Origin: Deltaproteobacteria bacterium ADurb.Bin151
Lineage (GTDB): Bacteria; Desulfobacterota; Syntrophia; Syntrophales; Smithellaceae
NCBI GenBank assembly: GCA_002070455.1
Contig: MWDG01000019.1
Span: 1 to 40,209, forward strand
Direction: 5' to 3'
Length of the DNA stretch: 40,209 nt
Under the pieces are notes generated by a model. That model was not told where the DNA came from. It was given only the letters and a program-made list of their open reading frames with translations, and made no database searches. Position 1 is the first letter of the stretch. Each line of letters opens with the position of its first letter. Both the position numbers and the translations under genes were made by a program. Positions 32,003 to 36,500 of this stretch are shown piece after piece.

Positions 32003-32096
32003 GTAATCCAGAGCCTTCATGATCTTTCAGGAACCATTACCATCAAGAGGCGAGGAGTATATGCCCCTGGATGGTAAGGAACTGAAATGGATTCAA

Positions 32097-32525
32097 TTAC
32101 TCCAGAATACAAATATACTTTTTTTTGCCATTCGACAAATTGAGTTCTTCTTCGTTGTTTTGTATAAAAGTATATTTCTGTCTTCCGAATCGCATTGCCT
32201 TTGCGTGTGAATTCATGAAGATATCGATATTACTACGATTTCTTTTGCTGGTGCGGTCTTTGACGACAAAGGTTCCCATGCCGCTTATTTTAATTTTTGT
32301 TCCCAGTTTTAATCCCTGCGCCTCAAGATCCCTGGAAACGGCCACGATACCGGGTCGTACGTACTCTCCGGATGACGTTATGCCTTTATTCTGATAACAT
32401 TCTTTCAACGTGTATGCCGTTACCGATACTTTGATTTCCTCTGCCTGTACGCTGATTGCTGCGTTCAACAGGATGAAAATTCCTAAAAGTAAAACTCTAG
32501 TCACTAATAGGTTAATTCTCGTCAT
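32097..32525 (-). CDS. Secreted 3D-domain (RlpA/MltA-like double-psi barrel) protein
   Basis: A 142-residue protein with an N-terminal signal peptide (about residues 1-28, hydrophobic VLLLGIFILLNAAISV then QAEE). It has a 3D domain named for three conserved aspartates: Asp66 in VAVSRDLE, Asp90 in VVKDRTS and Asp101 in NIDIFM. The opening VSVTAYT and the GTKIKISGMGTFVV strand are typical. Related domains occur in lytic transglycosylases and in Gram-positive resuscitation/stationary-phase wall proteins, so a periplasmic peptidoglycan role is inferred. The start ATG has AAGGAGG five bases upstream. The preceding leader is highly structured (see that entry). No operon partner. Confidence 0.85.
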   Translation of the reverse strand: MTRINLLVTRVLLLGIFILLNAAISVQAEEIKVSVTAYTLKECYQNKGITSSGEYVRPGIVAVSRDLEAQGLKLGTKIKISGMGTFVVKDRTSKRNRSNIDIFMNSHAKAMRFGRQKYTFIQNNEEELNLSNGKKKYICILE

Positions 32526-32633
32526 AATGACCTCCTTGTGTTGAAAAGAGCATAATCGCTCTTTTGCACAGTTTGGGTTATGGCTACCTTGGCCTACCCT
32601 TATCTCCTCTATGGAAACACTCTTTAAAGAGTG
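32526..32633 (-). promoter_or_regulatory. Structured 5' leader of the 3D-domain gene, possible riboswitch-like element
   Basis: Reading the minus strand from 32633 toward the gene there are three hairpins. They are a perfect 16-base palindrome CACTCTTTAAAGAGTG (32633-32618); a GGGT...ACCC stem with inner GGC/GCC pairs (32599-32575); and AAAAGAGC-loop-GCTCTTTT (32565-32544), terminator-like, ending 6 bases before the ribosome binding site. The first and third hairpins share the sequences AAAGAG and CTCTTT, so each half of one could pair with the other, an arrangement that allows switching. I do not recognise it as a known riboswitch class. Confidence 0.5.
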
Positions 32634-32999
32634 GAATATGATTGTTTATACCTATTACCTCAATATCATTGTGATTTATTATTAGAATATCTCGGAAGAT
32701 ACAGAAAAATGATGTGATCTATTTCATAGCGTGCGGAACATACATAAAATGTTATGGTGTGTCAATTATTTTTTGGTCAGGCAGGTTGAATTAAGGCAGA
32801 AAGTATTAAATTTATTAAAGAAATATTTTAAAAACGCTCTGGTTGAGCAAAAAGACAGCCACAAGGCAGATCATGCGGTATCAGAAGCATGGTAAGTTGA
32901 ATGATTCAATGCATTAAAAAAATATGAATGCAGCTTCTTATTGTGGTAAATTCTCTTTATAGAAATAAAACGCCTAGGGGAACAAAAACGTTGCTTTGG
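32634..32999. other. AT-rich intergenic region upstream of two divergent genes
   Basis: About 370 bases without a credible gene between the 3D-domain gene leader and the sigma factor. It is clearly more AT-rich than its surroundings. On the minus strand TTGAGG and CATATT at about 32667-32639 are 17 bp apart and could be the promoter of the 3D gene. A small GCTC/GAGC hairpin lies at 32835-32847. I could not find a convincing ECF-type promoter for the sigma factor. Nothing else is supported. Confidence 0.4.
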
Positions 33000-33620
33000 A
33001 TGTCTAAAGCCATAGAACATGAAAAAGCCCAGGATGTCGATGAAGAAATGAAGCATGTCCGGGCCTGCCAGAAGGGTGATGCGGAAGCATTTGCCTTCCT
33101 GGTAGAAAGGCATTCCAAAAAAATGTTGAACATGGCTTACCGGATGCTGGGGGATTACGATGATGCCTGCGATATTACCCAGGAGGCTTTCCTGTCGGCT
33201 TTTCGTTCCATTACGGGGTTTCAGGGGGAGTCAAAGTTTTCAACGTGGCTGTGCAGGATTGTTATCAATTATGCCAAGAACCGTTTAAAGCAGCGACAGA
33301 GTCTGTCACGGCACGAAAGTGCGGCCCTTGATGAAAAAGCCGGGGAGCAGGGAGGATGTGCGGCCTGTCTTGCAGCATCCGATGATAATGATCCGGGAGA
33401 AATGTTGGAACGACATGAGCTTGAATACCGGGTGCAAAAATGTATATCGGGGCTTGATGAAGATTACCGGGAAGTGCTTGTGATGCGGGATATCCAGGGT
33501 TTCTCGTATGAAGAGATCCGGCAGACGCTGCAGATACCCGATGGAACCGTGAAGTCGCGGTTGTCGCGTGCGCGTCTGGCCATGAAAGATTGTCTGAAAA
33601 AAATTATTGGTGATTTATGA
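33000..33620 (+). CDS. RNA polymerase ECF sigma factor (RpoE-like)
   Basis: A group 4 sigma factor of 206 residues from ATG 33000. Region 2 is seen in AFAFLVERHSKKMLNMAYRM and GDYDDACDITQEAFLSAFR, with ...STWLCRIVINYAKNRLKQ. Region 4 is at the end: YREVLVMRDIQGFSYEEI and IPDGTVKSRLSRARLAMK. The start is uncertain: no strong ribosome binding site precedes 33000, and the frame is open to 32928; a later ATG at 33048 would cut close to region 2. The stop overlaps the anti-sigma gene by 4 bases, which shows that the two are a coupled sigma/anti-sigma pair. It would act once released from the membrane anti-sigma factor by an envelope signal. Confidence 0.92.
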   Translation: MSKAIEHEKAQDVDEEMKHVRACQKGDAEAFAFLVERHSKKMLNMAYRMLGDYDDACDITQEAFLSAFRSITGFQGESKFSTWLCRIVINYAKNRLKQRQSLSRHESAALDEKAGEQGGCAACLAASDDNDPGEMLERHELEYRVQKCISGLDEDYREVLVMRDIQGFSYEEIRQTLQIPDGTVKSRLSRARLAMKDCLKKIIGDL

Positions 33621-34696
33621 TCAAGTGCCACGACATACAAAAACTCCTTCCTCTTTATGAGGAGGGTATTCTTGCTGATGCTGAAAAGCAGGCGGTTGAG
33701 GATCACCTTGCGCAATGCGCGGATTGCCGCAGAGAAATGACTTTTCTACAAAAAGCGGACCAGCTTGTGAAGAATCTTTCCTCCGTGGACGAACCATCCT
33801 GGTTTCAACAGAGAATCATGGCGCAGGTACGGGAAGAAGCCGGCAAAAAGAGCTTCTGGCAAAAGTGGTTTTCCCCATTGGGGGTCAGAGTTCCCGTTCA
33901 GATAGTGGCGACGATTGTCATCGCGGTTCTGGCGGTCTATATTTACCGTTCAGGAGACGATCAGGTACAGAGGATTCTTCCCGGCGCCTTGCCGCCCGCG
34001 ATGGAAGATCAGGTGCAGCGAACTCCGGCACCGGCTCCCTTACCTGAAGTGACACCGCCGGCCAGTGAAGAAGTCTCAGCCACTGTTGGGCAGAAAAAGT
34101 CACCTGTTTTGGAAAAGCGCAAGAAAGACAAAGATACCGTGGTTCCTTCCGATGACCGCCGACTGCGGGAAAAAGAAATGCAGGAAATGAAATCTGAGGG
34201 CATTCAGGTGAAAGATGAATCCACCTCAAAAGGATCAGATAAAGCTGAAGAGCCCCTGTCTCCGGCGCTTCAGGATCGGGTAAATGAATTTAAATCTACT
34301 CCCGAACGTATGTCTGATTCAGAGAGAGCACCTGCGCATGGAGCTTCAACTGCCATGGAGAGGAAGAAAGAAGCTTATAAAATGGCCGCTCCTTCTGCGG
34401 TCGGTTCCATGGCTCCGTCGGCGCCTGCTCAGCCGCAGGCAAGAATTTTTCTGCTGGTTGACAATCCGGGTATAGTTGCCGAGGAAGTGGAGAGGATCCT
34501 TACCCGGCACGGTGCAGGCAAAGTGACAAAAAAGGTGATTCAGGACCGGATCGTGATAAGGGCCGAAATCTTCGGCAGGGAATGGAAAGAAATACTGTCG
34601 AAATTAAAAAGGATCGGGATTGTGGAAGAAAGAAGCAGCCCCGGAGATACCGGTGAACTCCTCGTTCCTGTATCGATAGAAGTATCCGATCACTAA
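33617..34696 (+). CDS. Membrane anti-sigma factor with zinc finger and periplasmic C-terminal domain
   Basis: The N-terminal cytoplasmic zf-HC2 domain has His30-x3-Cys34-x2-Cys37 in HLAQCADCRRE, the anti-sigma zinc-binding pattern, and should hold the sigma factor encoded just upstream. One transmembrane helix spans about residues 93-111 (PVQIVATIVIAVLAVYIY). Residues ~112-270 are a charged, Pro/Ser/Lys-rich linker, probably disordered. The last ~80 residues fold again (ARIFLLVDNPGIVAEEVERI to ELLVPVSIEV) in an alpha/beta pattern that I cannot assign with confidence; a DUF2275-like domain is possible. Length is 359. Its stop overlaps by 4 bases the stop of the convergent phospholipase gene. 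Confidence 0.87.
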   Translation: MIKCHDIQKLLPLYEEGILADAEKQAVEDHLAQCADCRREMTFLQKADQLVKNLSSVDEPSWFQQRIMAQVREEAGKKSFWQKWFSPLGVRVPVQIVATIVIAVLAVYIYRSGDDQVQRILPGALPPAMEDQVQRTPAPAPLPEVTPPASEEVSATVGQKKSPVLEKRKKDKDTVVPSDDRRLREKEMQEMKSEGIQVKDESTSKGSDKAEEPLSPALQDRVNEFKSTPERMSDSERAPAHGASTAMERKKEAYKMAAPSAVGSMAPSAPAQPQARIFLLVDNPGIVAEEVERILTRHGAGKVTKKVIQDRIVIRAEIFGREWKEILSKLKRIGIVEERSSPGDTGELLVPVSIEVSDH

Positions 34697-35653: not shown

Positions 35654-36500
35654 TGGTTGTTAACTAACAAGATTGCAAAAAAGACCTGCCGACCTTGCAA
35701 ACGTGGGTTATGCTGTAGAGAAAAATAAACACTACGACGCAGAGCCACAACCAGGGAGGCAGGTCATGAAGAAGCATATCACATTTATTGGTTTCGATGT
35801 TCACAAAAATTCGATTAATGTTGCATTGGCAGATGGGGATCGTAATGGAGATGTCAGATACTATGGAGCCATCGGCGGCGTGCTTGACGATCTTGATCGA
35901 TTGGTTAAGAAACTGACATCTTCCTCAAGGGAGCTGCGCTTTGTATATGAAGCGGGCCCCTGTGTTTATGATATTTTTCGTTCTTTGACAGAGAAAGCGT
36001 ATGCCTGTGCTGTGGCTTCCCCTTTGCATATCGGCAAGAAACCCGCTGAGCGGATCAAGACAGACCGTGGCGATGCCGTGATGCTGGCCAGACTTTACCA
36101 TGCAGGGGAACTGACCTATGTATTCGTGCCCTGTGCGGAGGATGAGGCCATGCGGGATCTGACGCGTGCGCGGGAGGATGTGATCAAAGCCCAGCGTGTG
36201 GTTCGTCAACAGTTGGGCGGCATGCTGCTTCGTCATCCAGGGCATTTGCGGTATCAGAACCGCGTAAGGAGAAACCTCGTTCAGCCTATGGGATAAGGAT
36301 AACTGAACTCCCGGCTTTAGACAGAGGCAGCTCCGCGATGAAGACAGGTCTTGCGGTAACCAATCCGCGAATATCAGAATAATCAATCGTCGCTACTCAA
36401 GGTTCTGATCCGGCATATGCCCTGGTATATAATGAACAGCATAGCCACACAAAATTAGGTGGACAGGAGATACTCTTTTCCACTTGACAATTAACAACCA
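35654..36500 (+). mobile_element. Internally deleted IS110/IS1111-type insertion sequence remnant
   Basis: An 18-base imperfect inverted repeat bounds the region: 35654-35671 (TGGTTGTTAACTAACAAG) and 36483-36500, matching at 15 of 18 positions, with 10 perfect bases (TGGTTGTTAA / TTAACAACCA). Between them lie the 5' half of an IS110-family transposase and about 200 bp of non-coding DNA. IS1111-group elements carry subterminal inverted repeats of this kind, and IS110-family elements encode a guide (bridge/seek) RNA in a non-coding end. The element is about 850 bp against the usual ~1.3-1.5 kb, so several hundred bases of the transposase gene appear deleted near 36234. Bounds and subgroup are inferred. 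Confidence 0.6.
35766..36296 (+). pseudogene. IS110-family transposase, truncated (N-terminal DEDD domain only)
   Basis: From ATG 35766 the frame encodes the N-terminal RuvC-like DEDD domain: FIGFDVHKNSINVALADGD (first Asp), the VYEAGPCVYD Glu region, and KKPAERIKTDRGDAVMLARL with its acidic residues, then the coiled segment ending RVVRQQLGGMLLRH. After about residue 155 the family sequence stops abruptly. The remaining ~20 residues (PGHLRYQNRVRRNL...) do not fit the family, and the frame ends at 36296. The C-terminal domain with the catalytic serine is absent. A full-length transposase would have about 330-400 residues. It is not expected to be active. The frame is open upstream to 35673 but without family similarity. 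Confidence 0.8.

Follow-up and report, generated by a model that had tools for sequence, protein, structure and literature searches.

In this study, which compared one gene locus across genomes of Smithellaceae-like Desulfobacterota, we found that the gene of a likely secreted YuiC-like 3D protein lies between two conserved RNA structures, i.e., a leader with several hairpins and a hairpin behind the stop codon. The loop of the 3' hairpin, (G)CUCCUC, is complementary to an unpaired segment of the leader, GAGGAG(C), which lies between hairpin 1 and hairpin 2 and which we term the slot. On balance, we favour the interpretation that the whole is a lineage-specific cis-regulatory mRNA, the leader and the 3' hairpin of which pair with each other. 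The structures of the leader and of the 3' end are well supported, and the comparison of sequences lends moderate support to the slot-loop pairing as a predicted structure. The window, which is the whole stretch of DNA that was analysed, comprises 40,209 nt of contig MWDG01000019.1 (GCA_002070455.1) of Deltaproteobacteria bacterium ADurb.Bin151, and all of the coordinates are given on its forward strand.

The 142-aa ORF extends along the minus strand from the ATG at 32525 to 32097. A PDB sequence search with its product returned no meaningful match, the Pfam 3D family (PF06725) scored 16.1 bits, which is under its gathering cut-off of 23.8, and the NCBIfam matches were weak (the cell wall-binding EntB, EntA and EntD as well as histone-like proteins). 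The best solved match in Foldseek was YuiC of B. subtilis (4wlk/4wjt, E 3.4e-4 to 6e-4); for 4wlk_B, the comparison gave E 3.4e-4, a probability of 1.00, a TM of 0.45 and 24% identity over 88 columns, the input having been an AlphaFold model of moderate confidence (mean pLDDT 72.1). Because the weak Pfam and NCBIfam matches are joined by the match to the YuiC fold, the product is likely a secreted YuiC-like 3D protein and a putative wall enzyme, the signal peptide having been recognised by eye. This agrees with the initial annotation of a secreted 3D-type gene that is preceded by a structured leader, and the leader was indeed conserved in the orthologues. In the 3D proteins of L012, L037 and L039, there is a C-terminal insertion of ~31-34 residues that the other orthologues do not have.

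The three hairpins that had been described before the ribosome binding site are present on the minus strand at 32633-32537 and are followed by the Shine-Dalgarno sequence AAGGAGG (32531-32537), which was invariant in alignment A3, and by the ATG. Hairpin 1 (32618-32633; CACTCTTTAAAGAGTG, CACTC...GAGTG) consists of five pairs, for which 100% of the cells were paired in the 19 loci, and is mostly invariant with scant covariation. It is separated by the slot, GAGGAGA in the window at 32603-32609 (GAGGAGC in the family), from hairpin 2 (32575-32599), in which GGGU...ACCC encloses an inner GGC/GCC. Hairpin 3 (32537-32570) has the form UGUG/CACA around AAAAGAGC/GCUCUUUU, which reads TGTG/AAAAGAGC...GCTCTTTT/CACA in the window, and its loop-closing pair occurs as the C-G, U-G and U-A types. 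A comparison of orthologous leaders, as had been proposed initially, revealed conservation, and all three hairpins could be formed in 19/19 loci; in L041 and L043, which have the most divergent leaders, both hairpin 2 and hairpin 3 are rebuilt with different bases. Across the leader, 97.6% of the cells were paired and two-sided changes were found in 2 of the 22 pairs, this low number being due to the near identity of most of the loci. The minus-strand leader folds at -36.0 kcal/mol (z -3.60), which was equalled by 0 of 200 dinucleotide shuffles. The plus strand also folds well, as inverted repeats do (z -5.05 for a somewhat longer piece), and hence the strand is not decidable from the energy alone. 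It was assigned to the gene strand (minus) because G.U cells exceed A.C cells both in the leader (10 to 3) and in the 3' hairpin (13 to 2), these being counts of cells and not of independent events.

Upstream of the hairpins, a consensus scan combined with column conservation pointed to a promoter-like TTGACA-N17-TATGTT on the minus strand at 32737-32765. The number of such sites that the scan found in the window was not above that in shuffles. Among the 18 aligned loci, TTGA occupied the -35 column in all and the full TTGACA was found in 16. Based on this invariance and on the motif in the window, we infer that transcription probably starts near 32730 from a sigma-70-type promoter, which would give a leader of ~205 nt that includes all of the hairpins. 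Within this segment, pair counts suggested a long-range helix, P0 (32648-32719, minus strand; family form GUUCUUAU / AUAAGGAC), with 90.3% of 144 cells paired and two-sided changes in 3 of its 8 pairs; in the copy of the window, however, both strands are weak and P0 is not convincingly formed. The element is thus longer than the initial extent of 32526-32633, as it reaches back to ~32730, runs on past the ATG into codons of the 3D gene and is complemented by a 3' partner at 32077-32037. The initial annotation had noted neither P0 nor the constraint on the coding start, nor the 3' hairpin and its complementarity to the leader.

The conservation of the leader is far higher than that of the DNA upstream of a control gene. 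The 110 nt before the ATG showed a mean identity of 0.85 (120 pairs, 16 loci), and in pairs with a 3D protein identity of 0.6-0.7 the leader identity was 0.86, compared to 0.65 in the same band for the DNA upstream of the adjacent ECF sigma gene (231 pairs from 22 loci; L106, which has no upstream DNA, was left out) and 0.59 for random sequences with the same aligner. The difference between 0.86 and the control indicates that the leader is constrained in its own right. This constraint clearly runs from the leader into codons 2-16, in which same-residue codons were identical in 1243 of 1453 comparisons (0.855) as opposed to 4685 of 8724 (0.537) in codons 17-118, in both cases for 16 loci. RNAalifold predicted a fourth hairpin in this part of the coding region (32482-32511, minus strand), for which 97.2% of 180 cells were paired. 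Its covariation was not above that of shuffles and, despite the clear codon constraint, hairpin 4 is thus a prediction only. The RNA alignments were made without L045, which has a cut leader, and the leader analyses without L002, which lies at a contig end. On account of the shortness of its upstream DNA or of its additional C-terminal part, L037 was left out of the upstream alignment and the loop-partner search as well as of the codon, flanking-gene and leader-identity comparisons.

The 3' hairpin (32037-32077, minus strand; loop AUAUACUCCUC, with CUCCUC at 32057-32052) begins 19 bases past the stop codon and has 14 pairs, with one mismatch in the window. In the comparison of loci, from which L046 and L047 were left out because they lie at contig ends, 95.0% of its 238 cells were paired, 8 of the 14 pairs had two-sided changes, and 0 of 500 shuffles were as good. 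The covariation of the stem is thus strong, while the loop, (G)CUCCUC, is nearly invariant. A run of U directly after the stem is absent from the window and, among the 18 loci listed, was present only in L036; without it, the hairpin of the window is not a typical intrinsic terminator.

The two ends of the predicted mRNA match each other through this loop, for which the slot was the best partner anywhere in the transcript in 15 of 16 loci. Both parts are present in 17 loci, of which 15 pair at 7/7 positions, the window pairs at 6/7 as its seventh pair is lost, and L043 has no slot-loop complementarity at all, so the match can evidently disappear. Slot and loop are changed in exactly the same three loci, namely the window, L041 and L043, and in L041 the combination AAGGGGC/GCUCCUU preserves all seven pairs in a compensatory manner. 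The complementarity thus co-varies in a few lineages. When whole loops were shuffled among the leaders, the observed pairing was reached in a fraction of 0.0005, and the number of two-sided changes in a fraction of 0.0035, values that ignore kinship; L041 and L043 are close neighbours at the same locus. Of the 17 loci, 14 are identical to one another in both slot and loop, and these loci are therefore uninformative on co-change. Moreover, among the five pairing loci tested in this way, a shuffled leader matched the loop equally well in 1.6-2.3% of cases for L031, L036 and L038, in 10% for the window and in 24% for L041, so that the complementarity alone is weak evidence. The slot is also predicted to be partly paired elsewhere in nested folding (P unpaired 0.10-0.73). 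It precedes the Shine-Dalgarno sequence by ~66 nt. In each of the 16 pairing loci, the duplex of the loop with the slot (-9.7 to -14.5 kcal/mol) was stronger than that with the Shine-Dalgarno sequence (-7.4 to -7.9 kcal/mol). Taking these observations together, we consider the slot-loop pairing to be probably functional.

Orthologues of the 3D protein were found in 20 of the 51 family genomes and only in Smithellaceae-like Desulfobacterota, the 17 named orthologue records being labelled as Smithella, Smithellaceae, Syntrophaceae or (uncultured) Deltaproteobacteria. With strict filters, the leader model R1 matched 18 of the 51 family genomes, each at the 3D gene only. Out of 155 genomes in the order, it matched no others than these 18, and in the phylum sample it matched 5 of 395 genomes, all of which belong to the Smithellaceae-like family and have the match at the 3D gene. 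The leader occurs in three of seven genera and beside one gene only. Two genomes with the protein have no R1 match, i.e., G016, in which the gene begins at a contig end, and G050, in which both the leader and the gene are cut. G016 is the closest relative and has a changed 3' loop; its leader was searched for and not found. In G050 (Smithella sp. SCADC), the leader of locus L045 ends within hairpin 3, the gene is truncated at 103 aa and there is no 3' hairpin, so the locus is either a copy in decay or the result of a join in the assembly. In genome G045, the leader and the start of the gene occur twice (L037 and L046), with the second copy at a contig end. The 3' hairpin model R2 matched 19 of the 51 family genomes, 18 of them at the 3D gene, while the remaining match (L096 in G019) is an ordinary hairpin and was dismissed as a chance match.

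The genes around the 3D gene vary, and flanking genes were common to 4 of 120 locus pairs upstream and 5 of 120 downstream. A mobile cassette was considered and rejected as an explanation, as this low sharing was matched on the upstream side of the control ECF sigma gene (12 of 231 pairs), which indicates that the gene order is simply scrambled. In the window, the gene of the ECF sigma factor precedes that of a zinc-finger anti-sigma protein containing a DUF2275 part (32994-34696, plus strand), and this downstream side of the ECF sigma gene was common to all 23 family loci that were examined. A site lacking the 3D gene was looked for and not obtained, as the contig of the best relative ends at the ECF gene. 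An ORF at 35673-36296 (plus strand) resembles what we take to be the N-terminal part of an IS110-type transposase and is apparently truncated at 207 aa.

The ydaO c-di-AMP and GEMM c-di-GMP riboswitches are associated with the leaders of wall-lysis genes. The leader of the 3D gene resembles them in preceding a gene of this type, but differs in that it has no match in Rfam. An Rfam 15 covariance search that included both riboswitches yielded 0 matches in the window, and the search of 8 of 30 loci also yielded 0. Permissive searches returned only a plastid intron (E 6.1) for the leader and only mir-936 (E 3.7) for the 3' hairpin. The initial suggestion that the leader may be an undescribed RNA regulator is in agreement with these results as regards the lack of an Rfam match, and no published description of it was found in a search limited to open papers. 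A tie to c-di-AMP or c-di-GMP riboswitches, which the initial annotation had mentioned, was not supported, given the lack of an Rfam match and the confinement to one gene in one bacterial family.

A broader version of the sensor idea, in which the leader is a riboswitch or an autogenous site that senses a ligand or a protein through hairpin 2, the 3' hairpin is an independent stabiliser and the match between them is due to chance, appears unlikely to us. In its favour, hairpin 2 hardly varies in 17 of 19 loci, including the AAAGGUA loop and the AUA bulge, and in most of the loci that were tested ~2-10% of the shuffled leaders gave an equally strong match. However, the rebuilding of hairpin 2 in L041 and L043 would be unusual for an aptamer, and the conservation across distant hosts or several gene contexts that is usual, though not strictly required, for riboswitches was not found for the leader, which accompanies a single gene in three of seven genera. 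Chance would also leave unexplained why the 3' loop is nearly invariant and why changes of the slot coincide with changes of the loop. The positive evidence for a riboswitch would be the conservation alone, with nothing in the leader pointing to a ligand. Far less probable still is the switch that was proposed in the initial annotation, in which hairpins 1 and 3 would exchange complementary hexamers. The hexamers do exist in the window, with 6 bp each way, and at least 6 bp with the 5' arm of hairpin 3 are available in 11 of 19 loci, but the other eight can form at most 5 bp while each of their hairpins retains its own stem.

The loop could also act on ribosome binding, since CUCCU is complementary to the AGGAG of a Shine-Dalgarno sequence. 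The 3' loop would then be an anti-Shine-Dalgarno element directed at its own or other mRNAs, either in the manner of icaR or as a small RNA derived from the 3' end, with the slot serving as a decoy or a standby site in competition for the loop. In L038, L040 and L042, the second-best site of the loop is indeed at the ribosome site (-11.4), and the loop change in L041 suits its own Shine-Dalgarno sequence as well. Against this, the G that is conserved in front of CUCCUC has its partner in the C of the slot and not in the Shine-Dalgarno sequence, and the latter forms the weaker duplex in every pairing locus; we therefore regard this explanation as improbable, too. As the slot lies outside the ribosome site, with which the loop forms the weaker duplex, protection or shaping of the leader is favoured over blocking.

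In the mechanism that we propose, a single-gene transcript of ~0.7 kb would start near 32730 and would consist of the leader (P0 and hairpins 1-3), the constrained coding start with hairpin 4, the wall enzyme and the 3' hairpin. Pairing of the (G)CUCCUC loop with GAGGAG(C) in the slot would close the mRNA end to end, thereby stabilising it or setting its translation. Rather than blocking translation, such closure might protect the full-length mRNA or keep the leader in an active shape, and a protective effect can be put forward only tentatively. The transcript ends, the occurrence of the pairing in the cell and its effect are what we infer from the comparison. It is conceivable, though with some doubt, that this is an evolutionarily maintained closed-loop mRNA in which only complete transcripts are active or protected, with the constraint extending to codon 16. 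If true, it would add a conserved 5'-3' mRNA contact in a lineage of Desulfobacterota to the cases named in the cited part of a review, which are from Staphylococcus and Bacillus (PMC7821165). Both ends of the mRNA and their match persist across genera despite differing neighbour genes. If the pairing is real, the locus would offer a compact natural system in which to ask if the completion of transcripts is sensed by bacteria, and would represent an extra regulatory layer for a wall enzyme of hard-to-culture syntrophic bacteria.

RNAIII/hld of S. aureus also regulates in trans. Its likeness to the mRNA proposed here is the short long-range 5'-3' pairing within the molecule, as outlined in the cited part of the review (PMC7821165). 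The protein itself resembles the YuiC/Sps 3D-domain proteins (PMC4499186) in its small 3D (MltA-like) fold, but is remote from them with 24% identity. In the icaR mRNA of Staphylococcus aureus, a 3' motif pairs with the Shine-Dalgarno region and yields a substrate of RNase III, according to the cited part of PMC3868564. In the mRNA of the 3D gene, by contrast, the Shine-Dalgarno region is not the main partner of the 3' motif in any of the 16 pairing loci, the stronger predicted partner being the slot further upstream; moreover, the motif is part of a short hairpin loop, and its conservation spans genera. In the hbs mRNA of Bacillus subtilis, pairing of the 5' and 3' UTRs is reported, in the cited part of PMC7821165, to protect the mRNA against being cleaved by RNase Y within the 5' UTR. 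The mRNA of the 3D gene would share the pairing of the two UTRs with hbs but differs in the length of the pairing (14 nt in hbs compared to the 6-8 bp predicted here) and in the phylum. As the Shine-Dalgarno duplex is the weaker one, a contact that protects the mRNA as in hbs, or that shapes the leader, would be favoured over blocking of the icaR type.
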